Assembly: GCF_014023275.1 (NCBI RefSeq)
Contig: NZ_CP054698.1
Span: 7,649,001 to 7,713,000 of the forward strand
DNA length: 64,000 bases
Source of the DNA: Nostoc edaphicum CCNP1411
GTDB taxonomy: Bacteria > Cyanobacteriota > Cyanobacteriia > Cyanobacteriales > Nostocaceae
Reading direction: 5' to 3'
Shown here: positions 1 through 9,902 of the stretch, in pieces
Layout: the number at the start of each line of letters is the position of its first letter
How positions within the stretch are numbered: position 1 is the first letter of the stretch
Position numbers and translations under genes: made by a program
The notes under the pieces: generated by a model
Database searches by the model: none
The model's input: only the letters and a program-made list of their open reading frames with translations
Told to the model about the DNA's origin: nothing

Positions 1-3000
1 TGCGCTGTGCTGACGTTAGCCCTGTTACACCTGTGATATTCAGCCCTGCACAAAGTTTATAGCTAATTACCCGCAGACAGTCGCCAGTAGTTGCATCCCA
101 AATACGGATGGTTTCATCATAACTGCCACTGACAATGCGTTGACCGTCGGGGGAAAACGCCACTGAATAGACCGCAGAATCATGCCCCAAAAAGGGTTGA
201 CCAATGGGCTGACCATTCACATCCCACAACCGTACTGTCTGGTCAGAACTGCCACTGACAATCCGCTGACCGTCGGGGGAAAACGCCACTGAATAGACCC
301 CAGAATCATGCCCCAAAAAGGGTTGACCAATGGGCTGACCATTTACATCCCACAACCGTACTGTCTGGTCAGAACTGCCACTAACAATGCGCTGACCGTC
401 GGGGGAAAACGCCACTCCCCACACCGCAGAATCATGCCCCAAAAAGGGTTGACCAATGGGCTGACCATTCACATCCCACAACCATACTGTCTTGTCAGAA
501 CTGCCACTAACAATGCGCTGACCGTCGGGGGAAAACGCCACTCCCCAGACCACAGAATTATGTCCCAAAAAGGGTTGACTAATGGGTTGACCATTCACAT
601 CCCACAACCGTACTGTCTTGTCAAAACTGCCACCGACAATTCGCTCACAATCGGGGGAAAATGCCACCGAATTGACCTCAGAATCATGCCCCAAAAAGGG
701 TTGACCAATGGGCTGACCATTTACATCCCACAACCGTACTGTCTTGTCAGAACTGCCACTGACAATCCGTTGACCGTCAGAGGAAAACGCCACTCCCCAG
801 ACCGCAGAATCATGCCCCACAAAGGGTTGAGAAATGGGCTGACCATTCACATCCCACAACCGTACTGTGTCAGAACTGCCACTAACAATGCGCTGACCGT
901 CGGGGGAAAACGCCACTGAATAGACCGCAGAATCATGCCCCACAAAGGGTTGAGAAATGGGCTGACCATTCACATCCCACAACCGTACTGTCTTGTCATC
1001 ACTGCCACTGACAATGCGCTGACCGTCGGGGGAAAACGCCACTGAATTGACCTCATTTTCATGCCCCAAAAAGGGTTGAGAAATGGGCTGACCATTCACA
1101 TCCCACAACCGTACTGTCTTGTCATCACTGCCACTGACAATGCGCTGACCGTCGGGGGAAAACGCCACTGAATTGACCTCATTTTCATGCCCCAAAAAGG
1201 GTTGACCAATGGGCTGACCATTCACATCCCACAACCGTACTGTCTTGTCATCACTGCCACTGACAATGCGCTGACCGTCAGGGGAAAACGCCACGGATCT
1301 TACCCAATCTTCATGCCCGGCAAATGGTTGACCAATAGGCTGACCATTCACATTCCACAACCGTACTGTGTCAGAACTGCCACTAACAATGCGCTGACCG
1401 TCGGGGGAAAACGCCACTGAATTGACCCCAGAATCATGCCCGACAAAGGGTTGACCAATGGGCTGACCATTCACATCCCACAACCGTACTGTCTTGTCAT
1501 TACTGCCACTGACAATCCGCTGACCGTCGGGGGAAAACGCCACTGAATTGACCCCAGAATCATGCCCGACAAAGGGTTGACCAATGGGCTGACCATTCAC
1601 ATCCCACAACCGTACTGTGTTGTCATCACTGCCACTGACAATCCGCTGACCGTCGGGGGAAAACGCCACTGATCTGACCCAATCTTCATGCCCTTGAAGG
1701 AACAACAAGACTCTGCCAGAGGATGCTTCCCAAACTTGTACAGTACCCTTACTATCTCCAATCACCAATTTTTTGCCATCAGCACTAAATGCCACCGACA
1801 AGACCACTCCCAGAACTGGCGCAAAAACCGAGTTTGCGAGATCGGCTCCCATCAAATTTATCCACCGCAAGCTGGCATTAGCAAAATTTACGTCTGTAAT
1901 CACAGTATGGCTGAGATCAGATTTTTCCAGACTATAGGGATTTCTTGCTAGTAGTAATTTCACCAGGTTGCCACCTATATAACCCACCTGAGTCTGGTTT
2001 TTGCCACGAGTTGACTGAATTAGTGCGAGCAACCGTTGTTTAAATACTTGCTCATCTAACATTGGCACAGCTAAATCCAGCAAAGCTTTTGCCAAGGGAG
2101 CCGTACCAAAGTAATTAGATAATTTTTCTAGAGATGCTTTGGCAAATGAATTTAGCGGTGCTATTGAGAGCAGTTGCCTATCTTCTCCACACTGTCGTTG
2201 AAAGTATTCTGGCCAAGTGTAATCTTGTGGTGGAAGAGTATTTAAATAAGATTGTGCTTGAGCCAGTTCTGTGAAGTCGGGAGCTAAAACGCCTAACTCT
2301 GCCACTAGCTTATAGGCAGCAAAAAATTCCAATAACGAACGATGGGCAGGGCTATAGTCTCCTTCGGCATTACGAATTAGCATTGTCTGCCCCATCATGT
2401 CGTAATGCCAGTGGTCTAAATCTTTTTCTTCTTGGACTACAGCAGGAAATAAACGCCGAATCCGGTCGGGAAATTCTTTGTAGTTCATGCTCATCCGGTC
2501 TGTTGAGAGCATTTCCCAGGACAACTCACACAAAAAATAGAGCTTATCTGCCAATGAGGTAAAGGTGCGCTTGGTTTTGATATCTCTCTCCATCTTGTGC
2601 CGCACAGCATATAAATATACCCGTGATATATCTACTGGCTTGCCCGCCTCAATCTCTGGCAAAGCTTCTATAATCAATTCCGTCATTACCGGACGACGTG
2701 CCAAATCCCGCAATGTCGGATTACTCATTATCTGTTCTACTGTCTCAGGTTCAGCACGAAACGCTAATACTTGCCGAATTTGCTCGTCATCAAATTTTTC
2801 TAATTCCAGCACTTCAAAGCGCGGTGTCTCTAGAGGCAAGTTAATTGTAGAAGCTTGTAACTCTGCACTTAGCAAAGCCCTTCCTTCTTTGGCTTCTGGG
2901 AAATGTTCGGTGCGACAGGTGAGAATTACCTTTGCCCCTGGTACTACTACTTTGGCTAGTTCCCAGAAGTTGTTGATCATCTCTTGGCGATTGACTCTAG

Positions 3001-4624
3001 CTGCCATTTCATCAAAGCCATCAAAAATCAACAACACTTTACCCATACGGTTGAGTTGTTCAAAGGCAGAATAACCAGGCAGTGGGATTTCATGCTTGCG
3101 AAAAAAGAATTCTGAAAATAGCGATTCTACACTCACTGCTTTGGCATAGTCCCGTAAAGGTATGACTAATGGTAGACGTGGGCGTTCTACTCCCCGGCGT
3201 TGAGCATCCCGATAGCGTTGCAGGGCAGTCCAGGCATAATGCAACCCAAACCAGGTTTTGCCAGTGCCAAATTCACCCAAAATAGAAAGGTGTTCTTTGG
3301 CAGGATCATCAAGCCAGCGCTCAACATAACCATCAATCCAACCATCAGCTTGAGCGTAACGGCTCATGCCCATTTTTTGCTTTGATTTGGGATCGAACTC
3401 GTCTTTGGTACAAGCTAGGGGTACATAAGTGCGGTCAATTCCCCGTTGCTTGATTTCATTTTCTAGCCAGTTGAGGTAGCCACTAAAATCGGCATCCCTA
3501 TCCAGCAACTCATCAAGGGTGTAGCAAAATAAATTTTGATTTTCTTGCTTGTTTACCTCATCTTTGGCAGCGCGACTGACACGGCGATTGGTGATTAGCC
3601 AACCTATATCTGTTTTTCGGGTATTTACTGACTGTCGCAAGGCAGCAACATCTGCCATTCCGGCTTCTCCTGTAATGCCGCGCACCAAAACTCGGTTATA
3701 TCCCTTTTTCTCTACAGGGTTATTGACATTAATAATCCACTCAAAATAATTTTCATTGTTAATTTCATACTTTTCAAAGCCATAGCGCAAGGCAGTGAAC
3801 CAAGCCTGTAATTGCTCTGCCAATTTAGCTGTCTGATTTGGTGGACTCGAAGTTTGTACAGGCGCAGATTGAACAGCTTGCTTATTCGTTGTTTCTTTCC
3901 TAAAAAAGAGATTAATACACCCCAAATTGTTAGAGATGAATTTTTGGGGTGCTGTTTCTAATTCCTGCCGTAAGAATGCTACTAGGGTTTCGTTGGTGAC
4001 CCATTGGTTAGATAGTTCAGCCAATTCAAATCCGCGCAAAATCGCGCTAGTGAGTACACTACTGGCTGTACGCACATTTTCATTGGCTAACTCAAATTCT
4101 CTGCAAGCAGCAATAAAACAGCGATCGCGTGTATTTCCGCGATCGCCTGGATCAGCTTCTGTAAAATTGAATAGTTCCCCACTGTAACAACAGTCCAACC
4201 AAATAATTTGCTGCCGTACTGGGCTGTCTTGCAATAAATCACGCAGCCACTTTAATCGCAGTCCCCAGTTCCCATCACAATCGGTATCACTAGTAGCTAG
4301 AAAACCTTCTTTGCGCCGACCTTTACGAAGACCATGCCCAGAAAAATAGAAGAGGGCTGTATCTGGAACGCTTTTACCTTCAGGATCAAATAGTTGCTCT
4401 AAAGCCTTCTCTAAGTCTGCGACCTTGACTTCCTGATTCTTTGCTATGCGCGGTGCATCAGCTTCACGCGAATCTAGGAATTCAGGCAATCGCTTGACAT
4501 GAAAATTTCCAGCTTCACTGAGTCGCTTGGCGATCGCTTCTGCATCGTTAGCAGGCGATCGTAACGCTGACGCTCCTGGAAAATTATACTTATTAATGCC
4601 AACAACTAAAGCATCTCTACTCAT
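1..4624 (-). CDS. Caspase / nuclease-like / NACHT ATPase / WD40 repeat protein, 3' end cut by window edge
   Basis: Open without a stop from the ATG at 4624 to base 1 (1541 residues seen). The N-terminus is a caspase-like (peptidase C14) domain: FYFSGHG places His97 and LDCCYSG places Cys146 as the likely catalytic pair. About residues 270-400 resemble a restriction-endonuclease-like (Mrr-type) fold, with ITNRRVSRAAKDEV, but I see no clear catalytic E/QxK. A NACHT-type STAND ATPase follows: Walker A GEFGTGKT with Lys456, Walker B LLIFDGFDE near residue 534, then TCRTEHF. A short pentapeptide-like stretch (about 895-930) leads into some 14 WD40 units. The last visible residues, NITGVTGLTSAQ, match the usual C-terminal tail of cyanobacterial WD40/pentapeptide proteins, so only a few codons are missing. 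Inferred role: ligand sensing by the propellers, NTP-driven oligomerisation and protease activation in defence or programmed cell death. It is co-directional with the two genes upstream. Confidence 0.9.
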   Translation of the reverse strand, partial: MSRDALVVGINKYNFPGASALRSPANDAEAIAKRLSEAGNFHVKRLPEFLDSREADAPRIAKNQEVKVADLEKALEQLFDPEGKSVPDTALFYFSGHGLRKGRRKEGFLATSDTDCDGNWGLRLKWLRDLLQDSPVRQQIIWLDCCYSGELFNFTEADPGDRGNTRDRCFIAACREFELANENVRTASSVLTSAILRGFELAELSNQWVTNETLVAFLRQELETAPQKFISNNLGCINLFFRKETTNKQAVQSAPVQTSSPPNQTAKLAEQLQAWFTALRYGFEKYEINNENYFEWIINVNNPVEKKGYNRVLVRGITGEAGMADVAALRQSVNTRKTDIGWLITNRRVSRAAKDEVNKQENQNLFCYTLDELLDRDADFSGYLNWLENEIKQRGIDRTYVPLACTKDEFDPKSKQKMGMSRYAQADGWIDGYVERWLDDPAKEHLSILGEFGTGKTWFGLHYAWTALQRYRDAQRRGVERPRLPLVIPLRDYAKAVSVESLFSEFFFRKHEIPLPGYSAFEQLNRMGKVLLIFDGFDEMAARVNRQEMINNFWELAKVVVPGAKVILTCRTEHFPEAKEGRALLSAELQASTINLPLETPRFEVLELEKFDDEQIRQVLAFRAEPETVEQIMSNPTLRDLARRPVMTELIIEALPEIEAGKPVDISRVYLYAVRHKMERDIKTKRTFTSLADKLYFLCELSWEMLSTDRMSMNYKEFPDRIRRLFPAVVQEEKDLDHWHYDMMGQTMLIRNAEGDYSPAHRSLLEFFAAYKLVAELGVLAPDFTELAQAQSYLNTLPPQDYTWPEYFQRQCGEDRQLLSIAPLNSFAKASLEKLSNYFGTAPLAKALLDLAVPMLDEQVFKQRLLALIQSTRGKNQTQVGYIGGNLVKLLLARNPYSLEKSDLSHTVITDVNFANASLRWINLMGADLANSVFAPVLGVVLSVAFSADGKKLVIGDSKGTVQVWEASSGRVLLFLQGHEDWVRSVAFSPDGQRIVSGSDDNTVRLWDVNGQPIGQPFVGHDSGVNSVAFSPDGQRIVSGSNDKTVRLWDVNGQPIGQPFVGHDSGVNSVAFSPDGQRIVSGSSDTVRLWNVNGQPIGQPFAGHEDWVRSVAFSPDGQRIVSGSDDKTVRLWDVNGQPIGQPFLGHENEVNSVAFSPDGQRIVSGSDDKTVRLWDVNGQPISQPFLGHENEVNSVAFSPDGQRIVSGSDDKTVRLWDVNGQPISQPFVGHDSAVYSVAFSPDGQRIVSGSSDTVRLWDVNGQPISQPFVGHDSAVWGVAFSSDGQRIVSGSSDKTVRLWDVNGQPIGQPFLGHDSEVNSVAFSPDCERIVGGSFDKTVRLWDVNGQPISQPFLGHNSVVWGVAFSPDGQRIVSGSSDKTVWLWDVNGQPIGQPFLGHDSAVWGVAFSPDGQRIVSGSSDQTVRLWDVNGQPIGQPFLGHDSGVYSVAFSPDGQRIVSGSSDQTVRLWDVNGQPIGQPFLGHDSAVYSVAFSPDGQRIVSGSYDETIRIWDATTGDCLRVISYKLCAGLNITGVTGLTSAQR
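100..1735 (-). repeat. Tandem WD40-coding repeats, 126-bp period
   Basis: Thirteen nearly identical units plus one diverged unit at the N-terminal side. The SPDG codons recur near 141, 267, 393, 519, 645, 771, 894, 1020, 1146, 1272, 1395, 1521 and 1647. The step is 126 bp (42 residues), with two 123-bp steps caused by loss of one codon. Fourteen blades would suit two seven-bladed propellers. Differences concentrate in the residues after each Gly-His (for example HDSGVNSV, HENEVNSV, HEDWVRSV, HNSVVWGV), which lie on one propeller face. Confidence 0.93.
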
Positions 4625-4751
4625 TTAATATGCGACTTTTTATAAAAATTCGGGAAAATTTCTCAAAATTCTAGCTATTGTTTGATTTTAATCGTATTTT
4701 CACAGGCAAGAATCGAGTAAATATTCCTGACTAAATATTTACCCATGAGAG

Positions 4752-5672
4752 TCACTTTTCTTTTAGAGGCGTAAATATTGGTCTGTCGCCATCTAAACCT
4801 CGCAATAAATAAGTTGTCAATTGCTGACCTAACTCTTGTTCTTGCTTAGGATTAATAGGTATTCGCCAACGAAGAGATTTGTAAAGTTCTAAGCGATACA
4901 AATCAAACGCAGATTCCAATAAGCTACAGTAAATACTTGCGGCATCAACTGCCCAATAATAAGCAAAGATTGCCCCCACTAACCCAGCAGGGATAGCCCA
5001 CCAAGCCCAAACAGTCCAAACGATAAACAGCAAACTCCACAGCCAAAAACGGGCTGCTGTATTCAGATTTGAACGTGCTTCTTGTAATTCTTTCTTCACT
5101 CCATCCGGTAATAGTAGCCAGAGGCGAGACCAGCAAATTACAGCATCCAAGCCATATTTATCATAAGGGCGGCTTTCAGCGGCTCTGAGGATATTACCTA
5201 ACTTTGTAGGCATTAACCTATTAGGTTGAGATGGAAACTGCATAAGTTGTCCATCCAGCGTTACATATTCCTCTAATTCCTCGTTAGTTATAACTTGTTG
5301 ATCTTTTTTATCAGCCAGGGTTTGCCAACGCTTATCTTTTCGTTTCAAATCATGCTCTTTTTGCTGTATCATCCAGCGTCGTAAAGGTAGCAACCAAGCA
5401 GACCAATAGCCTTCTAAAAATCTTAAAATAAATAAATCGAACCTTTGAACCACAAAACCTGAGACAGCAATAATCAGCAAACCACTTACCATAACAACAA
5501 TCAGCAAAGATTCTGGTTGCTGTTTAAGCCAGTCTTCCAAAGGTTTTCGACCAAAACGCCACACCCAAGCTAGTAGTCCCCCAATCCAGAAAACAAAGGC
5601 TGGTGTTAGTATGTTCGCAGCCCAGTTTTCTGCCAGCTTTCCACCCAGACTTTCCAAAAATTTGGTTGGCAT
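4752..5672 (-). CDS. Four-helix membrane protein of the conflict module, function unknown
   Basis: 306 residues. Hydrophobic segments lie at about residues 20-38, 55-76, 205-222 and 224-245. Between the pairs is a charged soluble loop of roughly 125 residues rich in Lys and Glu, containing a YDKYGLDAVICWSRLWLLLP stretch. I do not recognise a named family with certainty. It starts 9 bp after the stop of the small zinc-ribbon-like gene and ends 127 bp before the caspase-NACHT-WD40 gene, all on the minus strand, so the three probably form one transcription unit. A membrane partner of a caspase/STAND protein could be an effector (pore) or an anchor; this is inference from context only. Confidence 0.7.
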   Translation of the reverse strand: MPTKFLESLGGKLAENWAANILTPAFVFWIGGLLAWVWRFGRKPLEDWLKQQPESLLIVVMVSGLLIIAVSGFVVQRFDLFILRFLEGYWSAWLLPLRRWMIQQKEHDLKRKDKRWQTLADKKDQQVITNEELEEYVTLDGQLMQFPSQPNRLMPTKLGNILRAAESRPYDKYGLDAVICWSRLWLLLPDGVKKELQEARSNLNTAARFWLWSLLFIVWTVWAWWAIPAGLVGAIFAYYWAVDAASIYCSLLESAFDLYRLELYKSLRWRIPINPKQEQELGQQLTTYLLRGLDGDRPIFTPLKEK

Positions 5673-5681
5673 ATTTTGTAA

Positions 5682-6062
5682 TTAATCAGCAGGTATTAAC
5701 GGGACATTATGAGTAGGACAGTTTGGTATAGCTGTTCCGACAGAGCGACGATACCAACTATAATCATCCCCTTGAGGACATCTATATTTTGAAGCAGATA
5801 TTGGTTGACCTTTACCTGGAAGTGGCTCAAAACCCTTTGTTATCGGTTTTTCACTGAGAAACTCAGCCATCCAGTCGTCAGTATCTGGGTAACTTTTGAG
5901 GATTTCCAAAATCTGGTCATGGACTTGCTGTCCAGCTTTAGCTTGTGCCAATAGTTCAGATAATTGTCGGTCTACTTGAACCGCATCATCTCCTAAAAGT
6001 TCTGGAAGAAAAGGACGAATCAAACGCGTTCCCTCCAGAATATCTTCAGGTTCAAACACCAC
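5682..6062 (-). CDS. Small conflict-module protein with C-terminal zinc-ribbon-like motif
   Basis: 126 residues, first gene of the minus-strand trio. The N-terminal two thirds are acidic and helical. The C-terminus has a Cys-containing YRCPQGDDYSWYRR stretch, then a conserved-looking IPNCPTHNVPLIPAD end. The spaced Cys...Cys-x2-His pattern suggests a metal-binding ribbon, though only two Cys and one or two His are visible. I recall similar short 'CP...W...CP.H..pL' proteins beside bacterial NTPase-based conflict systems, but cannot name the family. The function, perhaps adaptor or sensor, is inferred from its operon. Its upstream region lies in the proposed transposon end. Confidence 0.68.
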   Translation of the reverse strand: MVFEPEDILEGTRLIRPFLPELLGDDAVQVDRQLSELLAQAKAGQQVHDQILEILKSYPDTDDWMAEFLSEKPITKGFEPLPGKGQPISASKYRCPQGDDYSWYRRSVGTAIPNCPTHNVPLIPAD

Positions 6063-6414
6063 AACTTAAAACCTCATTATGTAAGATTAATGGCTAATTA
6101 TTTTATATATACACTGAAATAGATTAACATAATTAATTTTTGAGCATAGATGGAGCTTCTGCTAACATTAATGAATTTTTTACCCTTCTATAGAAATCAT
6201 ATAGGAATCCGCTTTGATTTCTGAACTAATTTGCGTAGGCAGGCAATAGTCAAGAAGGCTTCTTAGTTGTTGCCTGTTGCCTGCCTATCGCGCTTGCGCT
6301 GCGACACGCTCCGCGAACGCACACCACGCAAATTCGTTCAGAAATCAAAGCCCCTATATATCATTAAGTATTGTGAGCTTTCTTTGTGATATGAAGACTT
6401 GTACTAATAAGAAA

Positions 6415-6631
6415 GCGACATTAAATTTGTAAAGTTGATTAAAACGATAGTTTCTGCATCAAATAGAATAAGCGACATTTACAATTTGAAAATATTAGGT
6501 TTACGACCTTAAGTGTATGAAACAAGGTAAAATCACTATCGAATTTGAAAAACTTTTAAAAACTAGTTTAACTCTTGTATAGCAAGAGTTGTAAGGTTTA
6601 AAATTAGCGACATTTAATTTGTGAACATACA
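6415..6631. mobile_element. Putative Tn7-like (CAST-type) transposon right end
   Basis: Three same-direction repeats are present: GCGACATTAAATTTGTAA at 6415, GCGACATTTACAATTTGAA at 6472 and GCGACATTTAATTTGTGAAC at 6607. The last is followed by ATACA ending at 6631, so the terminus read inward is TGTATGTTCAC. Several CGACA...AATTTGT repeats next to a TGT/ACA terminus are how TnsB-binding ends of cyanobacterial Tn7-like and type V-K CRISPR-associated transposons look. The body would lie to the left and include the conflict module. No transposase gene is in the window, and the left end and the 5-bp target duplication (predicted ACATT) cannot be checked here. Confidence 0.55.
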
Positions 6632-6717
6632 ACATTCACGGTTGTTAAAAATCCTGGCAGATATAGCGATAACCTTTGGGCCTCCCAGATCGGGAGGCTT
6701 TCCTATGTTCCGCAGAC
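6632..6717. other. Short flank between transposon-end candidate and dienelactone hydrolase
   Basis: No reading frame is seen. The segment holds the hairpin listed separately. It would be the original chromosomal sequence next to the insertion site if the Tn7-like end at 6631 is real. Confidence 0.4.
6680..6703 (+). terminator. Hairpin with short T tract, plus-strand orientation
   Basis: GCCTCCC (6680-6686) pairs with GGGAGGC (6692-6698) across a 5-nt loop, followed by TTTCCT. No plus-strand gene lies upstream within the window, so if this is a terminator its gene has been separated from it. It lies 20 bp past the stop of the minus-strand hydrolase but lacks a T tract in that direction. Confidence 0.5.
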
Positions 6718-7551
6718 TTACACGCCATTCTGCTTAAACCATGCCAAGAGACGTTTCCAACCTTCCTTAGCTTCTTTCTCGCGGTAGGAGGGACGATAAT
6801 CGGCAAAAAATGCGTGGGGTGCATCGGGGTAGACGATGATTTCAGATTTGCTGCTGCTGGACTTTAAGCGATCGCGCATCTGCTCTACTGTATCTAATGG
6901 AATACCTGTATCCTTCCCACCATAGAGTCCGAGAACTGGGACTGTCAGTTTTGATGCAATATCCACGGGATACTTGGGCTGAAGTTCGGTAGCATCGCCC
7001 ACGAGTCGCCCGTACCAAGCCACACCAGCCTTCACCTTGGGATTGTGGACTGCGTATAACCAGGTAATGCGGCCGCCCCAGCAGAAGCCTGTAATCCCCA
7101 ATTTGTCGGCATTACCCTTAGCTGATTTCACTGCCCAGTTTACCGTAGCGTCAAGATCGGATAACACTTGAGCATCTGGAACTTTGGCAACAATTGGGCG
7201 AATTTCGTCTATGCTGCTTAATTTTAAGACATCGCCTTGACGCACAAATAATTCGGGTGCGATCGCTAAATACCCCAACTGAGCAAAGCGACGAGCGACA
7301 TCTTGAATATGCTCATGTACACCAAAGATTTCTTGGATTACCAGGACAATGGGAAAATTGTCACCAGTAGCAGGTGCTGCTCTGTAAGCAGGGATTTCGC
7401 CATCTTTAACGGGAATTTTCACCGCACCAGCTACCAATCCCTTAGCATCAGTGCTAATGACTTGGGCAGAAATGGGTTGCACTGCCAAGGCAAAACCCGT
7501 CGCCAGAGTGGTTGTTGCGATAAATTTGCGGCGTGTTATTTCTTTCATCAT
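6718..7551 (-). CDS. Dienelactone hydrolase family protein, exported (Tat-type leader)
   Basis: 277 residues, alpha/beta hydrolase of the dienelactone hydrolase (carboxymethylenebutenolidase) family. The expected triad is visible: Cys157 in GITGFCWGG, Asp214 in YGGKDTG and His246 in DAPHAFF. The N-terminus carries a twin-arginine motif, RRKFIA, and a hydrophobic stretch ending near ISAQ30, which suggests Tat export to the periplasm. The family hydrolyses lactones or esters; the natural substrate is unknown. It is monocistronic: convergent with nothing on the left and 230 bp from the next minus-strand gene upstream. Confidence 0.9.
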
Positions 7552-7781
7552 CTCTACCTTGAATTGGCGAAAACTTTAATTGTTGGTTATCCGTACAGTA
7601 CTACAATGAGATATACTACGGTTTACCCATAAGTTTACTGCAATACTAGCTGTCTTTGCTACTTCAGTTTTCGCCATCAAGAGCGATCGCCTCATCTTTC
7701 CCGATTTATCCAATCTTTTATACCAGCTAACTGCCTTCTGCCTCCTGCCCTCTGCCTTTCTTGAAATCTACAGCAAAGTAA

Positions 7782-8951
7782 TCAATCAAAATCTTTCAAG
7801 ATAATGTGTTTTTTTAAGTCAAAACTGATTACACCTTGCTCTTGTAATTTGCCCATCAATCGTGTAATTGTGACTCTCGTAGTACAGCAGGCACTAGCAA
7901 TATCTTCGTGAGTGAAGCGAACACTTAGACGAGTACCCTCCGGCACAGTTTCACCCACTTCTCGTTTCAAAAGTTGTAATAGATGCTGCAAACGCTCTTG
8001 TACCCGTCGTTTTCCACAAATGACTAAAAAAGATTCTGTTTGCTGTAACCGCTGATTAATTTTTGGTAAAAGAGTATGACTCAGATTTGGAGAAGCTGCT
8101 ATTTCTGACGCATAAATTGACACCAACTCAACATCAGAGAGGGCTGTTGCTTGGTAGATGTTTAAAGATGTCAAACTAGAGCCAAAAACCATTCCTGCTG
8201 TTGCCAATCCTATTAGCAGTTCTTCACCAGTTTCACTGTAGGTACTGAGTTTGACCAAACCCTGACAAACGTACCAAATTACTAATGGGTTGAGGGGAAT
8301 AGTTTCTCCTTTAGAGTGTTTATGTATGGGACGAGTATTGAAAAGATTGTTGTCATTCTTAATTACTACTGATTCAAACTGCTGACGCTCAGTAATATTA
8401 CGCACTATCCAGCGCAGAGAAATTGCTTTACCCTGGTGATTGCGGACAACTGCCACTGTCAAAGCTGCATCAAAAAACTCGCCATAATGTTGTTGTAAAC
8501 GTACCAATAACTCTTTAACTCTGTCTGATTGGGATAGCTGTACTAGTTCGTTGCGAATCTGCTGACGTTCTTCTAAAAGGACAAAATTAATCATTGATTT
8601 GCCCACCAAAAAATGCTTTGAAACATTGAGCAACTTAGCTGCGGTAAGATTAGCTTCTTGGATGATTCCTTCTGTATTAGTTACTAAATAACCGTCTGGA
8701 GCCAACTCGAATAATTCTTGATAGCGTTGGCGTTCCGCTTCTAACCAATCCCGTGTTTGTAATAGTTCCTCATTTTGCTGATACAGTTCCTCCGCCGCTA
8801 ATTGTACTATCTTTGAAGTGTTATAGAGTTCCTTGAAAGCTTGTGGTAGAAGATCCGCGGGAATCCAAGGTAATACATTTGCAGTTTGGTATAAATCTGC
8901 TAAACGCTTATGCAATGCTTCTGCGCGTTGGATAAATTTTTCTATGTTCAC
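7782..8951 (-). CDS. PAS domain / Crp-Fnr-like transcriptional regulator
   Basis: 389 residues. A coiled-coil-prone N-terminus (1-75) leads into a PAS domain (about 76-195, ending in the PAC-like IVRNITERQQFE). A cyclic-nucleotide-binding-like beta-barrel with weak conservation follows (about 215-300), then a Crp-type winged helix-turn-helix: EDIASACCTTRVTITRLMGKLQEQGVI. The pattern suggests a sensor-regulator that reads a signal through PAS and binds DNA like NtcA or Crp. I see no canonical cAMP-binding FGE...RxA motif, so the barrel may not bind a nucleotide. Target genes are unknown. The gene stands alone, with about 950 bp of apparently non-coding DNA upstream. Confidence 0.82.
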   Translation of the reverse strand: MNIEKFIQRAEALHKRLADLYQTANVLPWIPADLLPQAFKELYNTSKIVQLAAEELYQQNEELLQTRDWLEAERQRYQELFELAPDGYLVTNTEGIIQEANLTAAKLLNVSKHFLVGKSMINFVLLEERQQIRNELVQLSQSDRVKELLVRLQQHYGEFFDAALTVAVVRNHQGKAISLRWIVRNITERQQFESVVIKNDNNLFNTRPIHKHSKGETIPLNPLVIWYVCQGLVKLSTYSETGEELLIGLATAGMVFGSSLTSLNIYQATALSDVELVSIYASEIAASPNLSHTLLPKINQRLQQTESFLVICGKRRVQERLQHLLQLLKREVGETVPEGTRLSVRFTHEDIASACCTTRVTITRLMGKLQEQGVISFDLKKHIILKDFD

Positions 8952-9902
8952 CTTAAATTCCTGCTACTTGCTTGCAGAGGTTGAGCAAAAAATCTACTAA
9001 ATAAATTCTTGGAAAAATTGCAGCATTCCCAATTTTGCGGAATGAGAAATTTAACTAGTTGTAAACTGCAATTGTTATTCAATTGAACTTATAAAATACA
9101 TTTATTTTAGGTTTTTGACAATTTATGTCCTATAGCACTACAGATGGGCCAGTCTTTTAAATGAAACGTGTCGCATTCAACCTAGATGCTCAAAGTAAAT
9201 TGAATCTAGGAAATTACAAGGTGTCCATTGAAAACTTTTCGCCACTCAGATGCTTTTTACAAAAAAGATTACGGCATATTGCGAAGTATTACTTCTACCT
9301 CTGGTGGGAAAATTTACTCGACTCAGCTAAATAGGATCACCAAATCTGCTGATCTAAGAATTATGCTAATTAGTGACTAAACTTTTCAGCCCGTCAAGAT
9401 TATAACTAACAGATAAATTAGATGAGATACCACAGTCGGAAAACTCTGAATCTCAACCTTAATTTCTCACGATTGTTTAACCCGCTTTGTTATTTCCCCA
9501 ATGAATGATTTAGTGTTAATGATAATTGTTTCCATTTTTACCTACGATAACTGATCAGACTTTCTCCAACTTCCATCACAAGAATCAAGGTACTACTACC
9601 AAAGATATAGAACCTAAGTTAAGTTTGTTTGTGATCCTGAATACGTTCATTATTAATAAATTTCATAACGAGCTTCCCGATTTCTTTAAGAAGTTGGGAA
9701 TCTGAGCCTTTCGATTTTAAAATTTATTGCCTATTGCTTATTACCTGCCCACGCAAGTAAATTCAAACATCAAAGCGGATTCCTATATAGTAATCCTATT
9801 TGATTTGTGAAAATCCGCGGTGTCGAGATCCCCGACTTCTCAAAGAAGTCGGGGATCTAATTTTCCACGAATGATTTAGGACTCCTATATATACTATTCT
9901 TT
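8952..9902. other. Non-coding stretch between the PAS-Crp gene and dnaN
   Basis: About 950 bp, AT-rich, with no convincing reading frame on either strand. It holds the long hairpin at 9826-9858 and a related degenerate copy near 9676-9702 (CCCGATTTCTTTAAGAAGTTGGG). The 5' part is upstream of the PAS-Crp gene and should carry its promoter; no factor site was recognised. Confidence 0.6.
9826..9858. repeat. Perfect 15-bp stem hairpin downstream of dnaN
   Basis: AGATCCCCGACTTCT (9826-9840) is exactly complementary to 9844-9858, with a 3-nt loop. It lies 45 bp past the dnaN stop. It has no T tract on the dnaN side, so it is either a dispersed hairpin repeat or a transcript-end stabiliser. Confidence 0.7.

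Follow-up and report, generated by a model that had tools for sequence, protein, structure and literature searches.

What do two small genes without a family name do beside a large gene that joins a caspase to an NLR-like receptor? The question is raised by positions 1-6062 of the window, i.e. of the whole 64,000-nucleotide stretch that was analysed (C6:7649001-7713000; the genome spans 8.3 Mb on 6 contigs), where the open reading frames define a minus-strand trio. Its members encode a zinc-ribbon-like protein (ZR), a four-segment membrane protein (TM4) and the large caspase protein. An earlier note had interpreted the two small products as a membrane-linked death effector with its own sensor adaptor, an interpretation that is partly supported by the analysis described here. 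Statements on published systems, cited by PubMed Central number, draw on parts of the respective texts.

Anatomy of the locus

The coordinates of the genes and domains are collected in Table 1. The three genes and the lengths of ZR and TM4 agree with the earlier description, and the gaps amount to 9 nt between ZR and TM4 and 127 nt between TM4 and the large gene. The stop codon of the latter lies 31 nt beyond the window edge, and the whole gene is found at L009:10969-15624.

Table 1 Genes and domains of the trio, in positions of the window
Feature	Position	Strand	Description or evidence
ZR, 126 aa, GTG start	5682..6062	-	three-helix N-terminal part (~1-70), linker (72-86), zinc-ribbon-like C-terminal part
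TM4, 306 aa membrane protein	4752..5672	-	four hydrophobic segments
Caspase / NA-iREase1 / NACHT / WD40 protein	1..4624	-	1541 of 1551 aa within the window
Caspase domain, residues ~1-235, His97 and Cys146	3920..4624	-	PF00656, 59.7 bits, above the Pfam cut-off; motif positions
NA-iREase1 domain, residues 268-375	3500..3823	-	PF22722, 1.1e-40
NACHT NTPase domain	2765..3286	-	PF05729, 33.5 bits, above cut-off
WD40 array, 13 GH-anchored units, 11 of exactly 42 aa	62..1693	-	variation focused on unit positions 3, 4, 5, 7, 23 and 25

Most of the domain reading proposed for the large protein is borne out. The predicted catalytic residues His97 and Cys146 are both in place, the caspase and NACHT matches exceed their cut-offs, and the estimate of about 14 WD40 units is matched by 14 stretches in Pfam and 13 GH-anchored units in a pattern search. 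The segment described as Mrr-like does contain a domain, but its actual identity is NA-iREase1, a NACHT-associated inactive restriction-endonuclease domain. Caspase-NTPase-repeat proteins are, as stated in the earlier note, known in bacteria, and the caspase-NACHT-WD40 architecture is already in print: metacaspase-NACHT-WD40 proteins have been described from cyanobacteria and other bacteria (PMC3501461), and the window protein shares their architecture, combining caspase, NACHT and WD40 in one chain together with the catalytic His and Cys. A ZR-TM4 partner is unmentioned in the available part of that source.

The neighbours of the trio are ordinary, namely a dienelactone-hydrolase-like gene and a dnaN-looking gene, and no defence island is evident. 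A promoter and terminator scan of the locus returned sites no more numerous than in shuffled sequences and is uninformative with regard to an operon. Upstream of ZR, a near-perfect 25-nt inverted repeat was noticed by eye (window 6212-6236 / 6326-6350, ~90 nt apart), which may represent either a regulatory stem or a small mobile element. To the left of the window, genes for proteins of 187 aa and 125 aa directly follow the large gene (L009:9925-10919); of the other loci searched, only the close relative L127 has both.

The four-helix membrane assignment of TM4 is confirmed by hydrophobic segments at residues ~17-37, 53-75, 205-223 and 224-245. Between segments two and three lies a conserved stretch (~residues 154-189, MPTxLGNxLRAAE...YGLDAxxCWxRLWLLLP), and the AlphaFold2 model is all helical (mean pLDDT 90.1, pTM 0.83). 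Neither the TM4 nor the ZR of the window, a combination that the earlier note could not name, matches a Pfam or NCBIfam family at E <= 0.1. Scanned singly against Pfam, 68 TM4 relatives gave scattered weak matches only (best E 0.0074), none of them convincing and none to a gasdermin family. At E <= 0.001, 1428 relatives of TM4 were collected, and none of the best 120 of these carries a Pfam domain. No solved structure matches TM4 by sequence, and Foldseek returned nothing for the model at E <= 0.001, with no recognised pore, channel or toxin fold. Gasdermin is likewise absent from the Foldseek and VIA-align lists for the predicted model, though a missing match does not exclude that fold. TM4 was absent from 50,697 phage records.

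For ZR, the zinc-ribbon-like label is justified by its relatives, some of which (e.g. L056 and L050) bear two CxxC/C-x-x-H knuckles, with complete zinc ribbons as in L056. Two Cys residues are invariant across 53 aligned relatives, and the window ZR retains both, together with a CPTH motif. A single-sequence search gave 24 relatives of ZR, and a profile search gave 28 among 8000 scored candidates. In the AlphaFold2 model (mean pLDDT 81.5, pTM 0.50), the three helices are joined to the zinc-ribbon-like tail by a linker of low confidence (residues 72-86). Single scans of the 53 relatives against Pfam gave scattered weak matches (best E 0.0018), none convincing and none to a gasdermin family; a convincing solved-structure match was not obtained by sequence, and Foldseek found nothing for the model at E <= 0.001. 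An xxLPG motif recurs in the linker. This motif need not be a cleavage site, because it is common to ZRs with CHAT and with caspase partners.

The proposed role of ZR as a sensor adaptor found no support. A profile of its helical part, run against open reading frames of more than 250 aa in 68 loci, matched only ZR-bearing frames. Within the loci searched, the protease proteins thus contain no ZR-like domain, i.e. no related copy of a putative adaptor in a neighbouring effector or sensor, and a homotypic link of the EAD type is unsupported. One match to the helical profile, in L015, was rejected as an artefact of repeats.

The ZR-TM4 pair and its protease neighbours

Two TM4 peptide patterns, applied to one genome per species, gave 67 confirmed loci; with the window and 23 further genome-survey excerpts, 91 loci were examined. 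From these, 62 distinct intact TM4 genes were kept (at least 240 aligned residues in one frame, DNA-identical repeats dropped), of which 61 could be judged for an upstream partner on the basis of at least 1 kb of upstream DNA; in L049 this stretch was too short. TM4 is immediately preceded by a ZR gene of the same orientation in 56/61 cases, with a median gap of 33.5 nt. The five TM4 genes without a recognised ZR are L071 and the distant L134-L137. The locus labels span six phyla (Cyanobacteriota, Actinomycetota, Chloroflexota, Pseudomonadota, Thermodesulfobacteriota and Acidobacteriota), and several loci stem from metagenome bins, while Streptomyces, Actinoplanes, Lentzea and Thermanaerothrix are isolates according to their titles. 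Separate searches of 292 cyanobacterial genomes found TM4 in 7, ZR in 7 and both in 6, adjacent in all six (Fisher 6e-11); the exceptions are a broken TM4 with CHAT (G215) and a ZR alone (G170). Sequence distances of TM4 and ZR are correlated (r 0.79, 55 loci), which is evidence of co-inheritance of the two proteins and not of contact between them.

The members L134-L137 form a distant TM4 subfamily in which the place of ZR is taken by CBS-like and RcpC-like proteins. L137 also encodes an AAA ATPase, and the excerpts of L134, L136 and L137 contain CHAT genes.

Protease neighbours were counted in the 49 of 62 loci with enough flanking DNA (2.5 kb upstream, 2 kb downstream), the 13 left out including the window's own excerpt, L009. 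A clan-CD protease is encoded within 2.5 kb of TM4 in 42/49 loci: 31 have CHAT only, 10 caspase only and one has both, and seven (L018, L030, L040, L045, L134, L135 and L137) have neither within this distance. L033 was scored as caspase only, though CHAT genes are found slightly further away. By Pfam, the first six CHAT partners inspected have a TPR-CHAT architecture, as do those in L017 and L027; among the first six, the motif H[FL][AS]CHG is present in 6/6 and LSAC[EK]T in 5/6. Against a background of 13-38 CHAT genes and 3-10 caspase genes per genome (11 genomes), the chance that a random spot has a CHAT domain within 4 kb is ~2-6% (11 genomes), and for caspase it is <1% (3 genomes). The adjacency of the pair to a protease thus recurs in distant bacteria and exceeds chance.

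A tree of the 62 TM4 proteins indicates that the protease type has changed repeatedly. The caspase label changes, in one direction or the other, three times by parsimony, and at least two of these changes are forced by well-supported branches; 11 rows had no protease at the distance used for the labels. Caspase partners other than that of the window include a caspase-nSTAND1 protein (L013) and a caspase-nSTAND1-WD40 protein (L016).

The linkage of the three genes was also viewed from the side of the caspase. A search with the caspase-iREase part of the large gene in 217 Nostocaceae genomes gave eight places with at least 79% identity, the window included, and all eight lie beside TM4, with one copy broken by truncation of TM4 (G397) and another by an in-frame stop (G411). 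The other caspase matches listed, which show 49-62% identity and cover no more than the caspase domain, lie away from TM4, except in G470 and G471, where a second, tandem caspase-nSTAND1-WD40 gene also adjoins it. The three-gene unit of the earlier note consequently holds in one direction: the small genes do not occur mostly apart from the large gene when the latter is the starting point, but from their own side the usual partner is TPR-CHAT (31/49, compared to 10 with caspase only). Because this is the commonest protease neighbour, ZR-TM4 is to be regarded as a portable pair rather than an accessory of caspase-NACHT proteins.

TM4 was found in 18/217 Nostocaceae genomes, and one copy resides on a Nostoc plasmid, probably with a second on the largest contig of the same genome. 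The patchy presence (7/292 and 18/217), the decayed copies and the plasmid copy fit a mobile conflict system.

Several loci show further arrangements. In L033 (Candidatus Thiomargarita, 1309-9870), two CHAT genes, a caspase, a fusion of a ParA/MinD-like NTPase with ZR, and TM4 follow in series on the same strand. Tandem caspase-STAND-WD40 genes, one with NA-iREase1-NACHT and one with nSTAND1, are found after ZR-TM4 in L012:10041-18544 and in L125. A gene 1.2 kb downstream of a CHAT-ZR-TM4 set (L015:11186-15814) combines caspase, NB-ARC, an APAF-1 helical match (PF17908, 22.4 bits at a cut-off of 22.8) and many short repeats, a bacterial apoptosome-like architecture.

Variation within the WD40 array

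Differences between the 42-aa WD40 units of the window protein fall mainly at six positions (Table 1). In the fungal HNWD receptors HET-D, HET-E and HET-R (PMC12222747, PMC4986451), a NACHT domain is likewise combined with closely similar WD40 repeats whose variation is focused on few surface positions, and high dN/dS has been reported at positions 10, 11, 12, 14, 30, 32 and 39 (PMC12222747). Shifted by seven, these become 3, 4, 5, 7, 23, 25 and 32, so that the spacing matches. The two groups differ in that the fungal receptors carry an N-terminal HET domain, whereas the window protein is bacterial and has an N-terminal caspase.

When the HNWD spacing was slid over all 42 cyclic registers, the shift-by-seven register scored best in each of the seven genes tested, i.e. 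those with at least four regular units; two of nine (L011 and L016) had too few. For the window gene, a summed entropy at least this high has a chance of 1e-5; the corresponding values are 2e-5 to 2.5e-4 in five further genes and 0.005 in L012, and they are not independent as the seven genes are related. The six most variable positions of the window gene are all among the seven HNWD-matching sites, and in both L012 genes just three of the top six positions coincide with such sites. A crude count of extra amino-acid against extra synonymous codon types in the window gene gives 19 to 1 at the seven sites, compared to 20 to 18 for the remaining positions; across whole WD40 units, pN/pS is 0.140/0.178. 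The sensor surface is a rapidly varying one. Variation at predicted hotspots in highly repetitive WD40 proteins has been noted earlier in general (PMC5587647), to which the present data add that the variable positions of a bacterial caspase-NACHT receptor coincide with those of HNWD.

Because the WD40 units of the protease protein vary most at the HNWD-matching sites, the sequence data suggest that the sensor is located in this protein and ZR-TM4 downstream of it. In general, sensing is likely to fall to the WD40 or TPR portion of the protein that carries the protease.

Proposed function and competing explanations

We propose, at a probability of roughly 0.48, that ZR-TM4 is the constant membrane output of a cleavage-gated defence or cell-death module, with an interchangeable clan-CD sensor-protease as input. 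The pair is taken as the effector, with the ZR linker as the foremost candidate cut site, because the pair is constant, the class of protease changes, and the sensor and an NTPase switch are part of the protease protein. A membrane-linked effector role is further what we infer because the arrangement is that of protease-activated membrane effectors, as in fungal gasdermins; a TPR-CHAT protease with a neighbouring gene for its substrate is also known from type III-E CRISPR (PMC10028731). The input protease would usually be TPR-CHAT, and in the window a caspase on an NLR-like NACHT/WD40 receptor. Here, the WD40 sensor would bind a non-self or damage signal, upon which the NACHT part would oligomerise and activate the caspase. 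The caspase would then cut ZR, most likely in the flexible linker, or a cytoplasmic part of TM4, and the cut would free TM4 to permeabilise or depolarise the membrane. We infer this order of activation, the cleavage and its site, the membrane damage, and phage as the presumed trigger.

Such a mechanism would be gasdermin-like in logic, not in fold. In bacteria and fungi, gasdermins are proposed to be protease-activated effectors, and they share with TM4 the position of a membrane protein gene beside a protease gene of changing class (PMC10989679). In fungi, ~80% of gasdermin genes are near a protease gene, mostly subtilase-like and in ~17% CHAT (PMC10989679). TM4 differs by the lack of a gasdermin match and by an all-helical model with built-in TM segments, and ZR is without counterpart.

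The main competing explanation assigns the killing to the protease itself, with ZR-TM4 as a membrane anchor or a sensor of membrane state that switches it. This is the logic proposed for the EACC1-caspase system (Kaur et al. 2020, PMC7159879), in which a small membrane protein, with a suggested sensor role, is encoded adjacent to a member of the caspase superfamily that bears variable additional domains in its C-terminal part. EACC1-linked caspase proteins sometimes carry nSTAND1 (PMC8195603), and caspases with membrane parts occur in several described conflict systems (PMC7159879). The window caspase resembles the EACC1-associated NCBIfam subfamily NF047832 but stays below its curated cut-off (90.5 bits compared to 140). 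Likewise, EACC1 has one conserved TM helix with short extensions (PMC7159879), whereas TM4 has four TM segments, with an extensive conserved region separating segments two and three, is accompanied by ZR, and mostly has a TPR-CHAT partner. A clearly varying sensor surface is, moreover, already present within the protease protein. Pfam includes an EACC1 model, and no EACC1-marking Pfam match was obtained for TM4. On balance, an anchor or sensor role of this kind appears rather unlikely.

Alternatively, ZR-TM4 could be the target of regulated proteolysis in signalling, the freed fragment altering transcription or another enzyme. Precedent comes from type III-E CRISPR, where the TPR-CHAT protein Csx29 is encoded beside its own substrate, together with Csx30, Csx31 and a sigma factor, and cleaves the sigma-factor inhibitor Csx30, so that control of transcription through a neighbour-gene substrate is established (PMC10028731). 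The zinc-ribbon-like tail and flexible linker of ZR would suit this role. The partners differ from those of ZR-TM4, however, and Pfam searches on part of the loci revealed no regular sigma-factor or DNA-binding neighbour, leaving signalling an improbable explanation. A housekeeping or envelope-stress role, in which proteases are merely frequent neighbours of the pair and defence has no part, would agree with the abundance of CHAT genes in each of the 11 genomes and with a window locus outside any evident island, but is a poor prospect given the patchy presence, decayed and plasmid copies, and adjacency far over background.

Returning to ZR-TM4 as a cleavage-gated output, the kind of system is already known, and the pair itself is new as far as searched. 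No paper on a zinc-ribbon/four-TM pair with CHAT or caspase was found in the open-licence PubMed Central literature, a body of text that largely excludes subscription papers and preprints, and an unnamed mention may exist elsewhere. More tentatively, the pair may represent an unnamed, multi-phylum family of protease-gated membrane effectors served by two classes of clan-CD sensor-protease. In heterocyst-forming cyanobacteria, this family would be joined to an NLR-like receptor whose WD40 repeats diversify at the residues used by fungal non-self receptors, combining the logic of pyroptosis with a membrane protein of its own.

Multicellular bacteria are rich in caspase-like and CHAT proteases, whose targets are known in few cases. 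ZR-TM4 is conserved in sequence, keeps either protease adjacent and is small enough for expression, and it thereby offers a direct handle on protease targets. The WD40 pattern leads to a testable claim, namely that bacterial and fungal NLR-like receptors change recognition at the same propeller positions. If TM4 is the membrane executor, it would be a second, unrelated bacterial solution to the receptor-protease-pore logic of pyroptosis, and ZR-TM4 may thus be a so far unnamed route from danger sensing to membrane damage.
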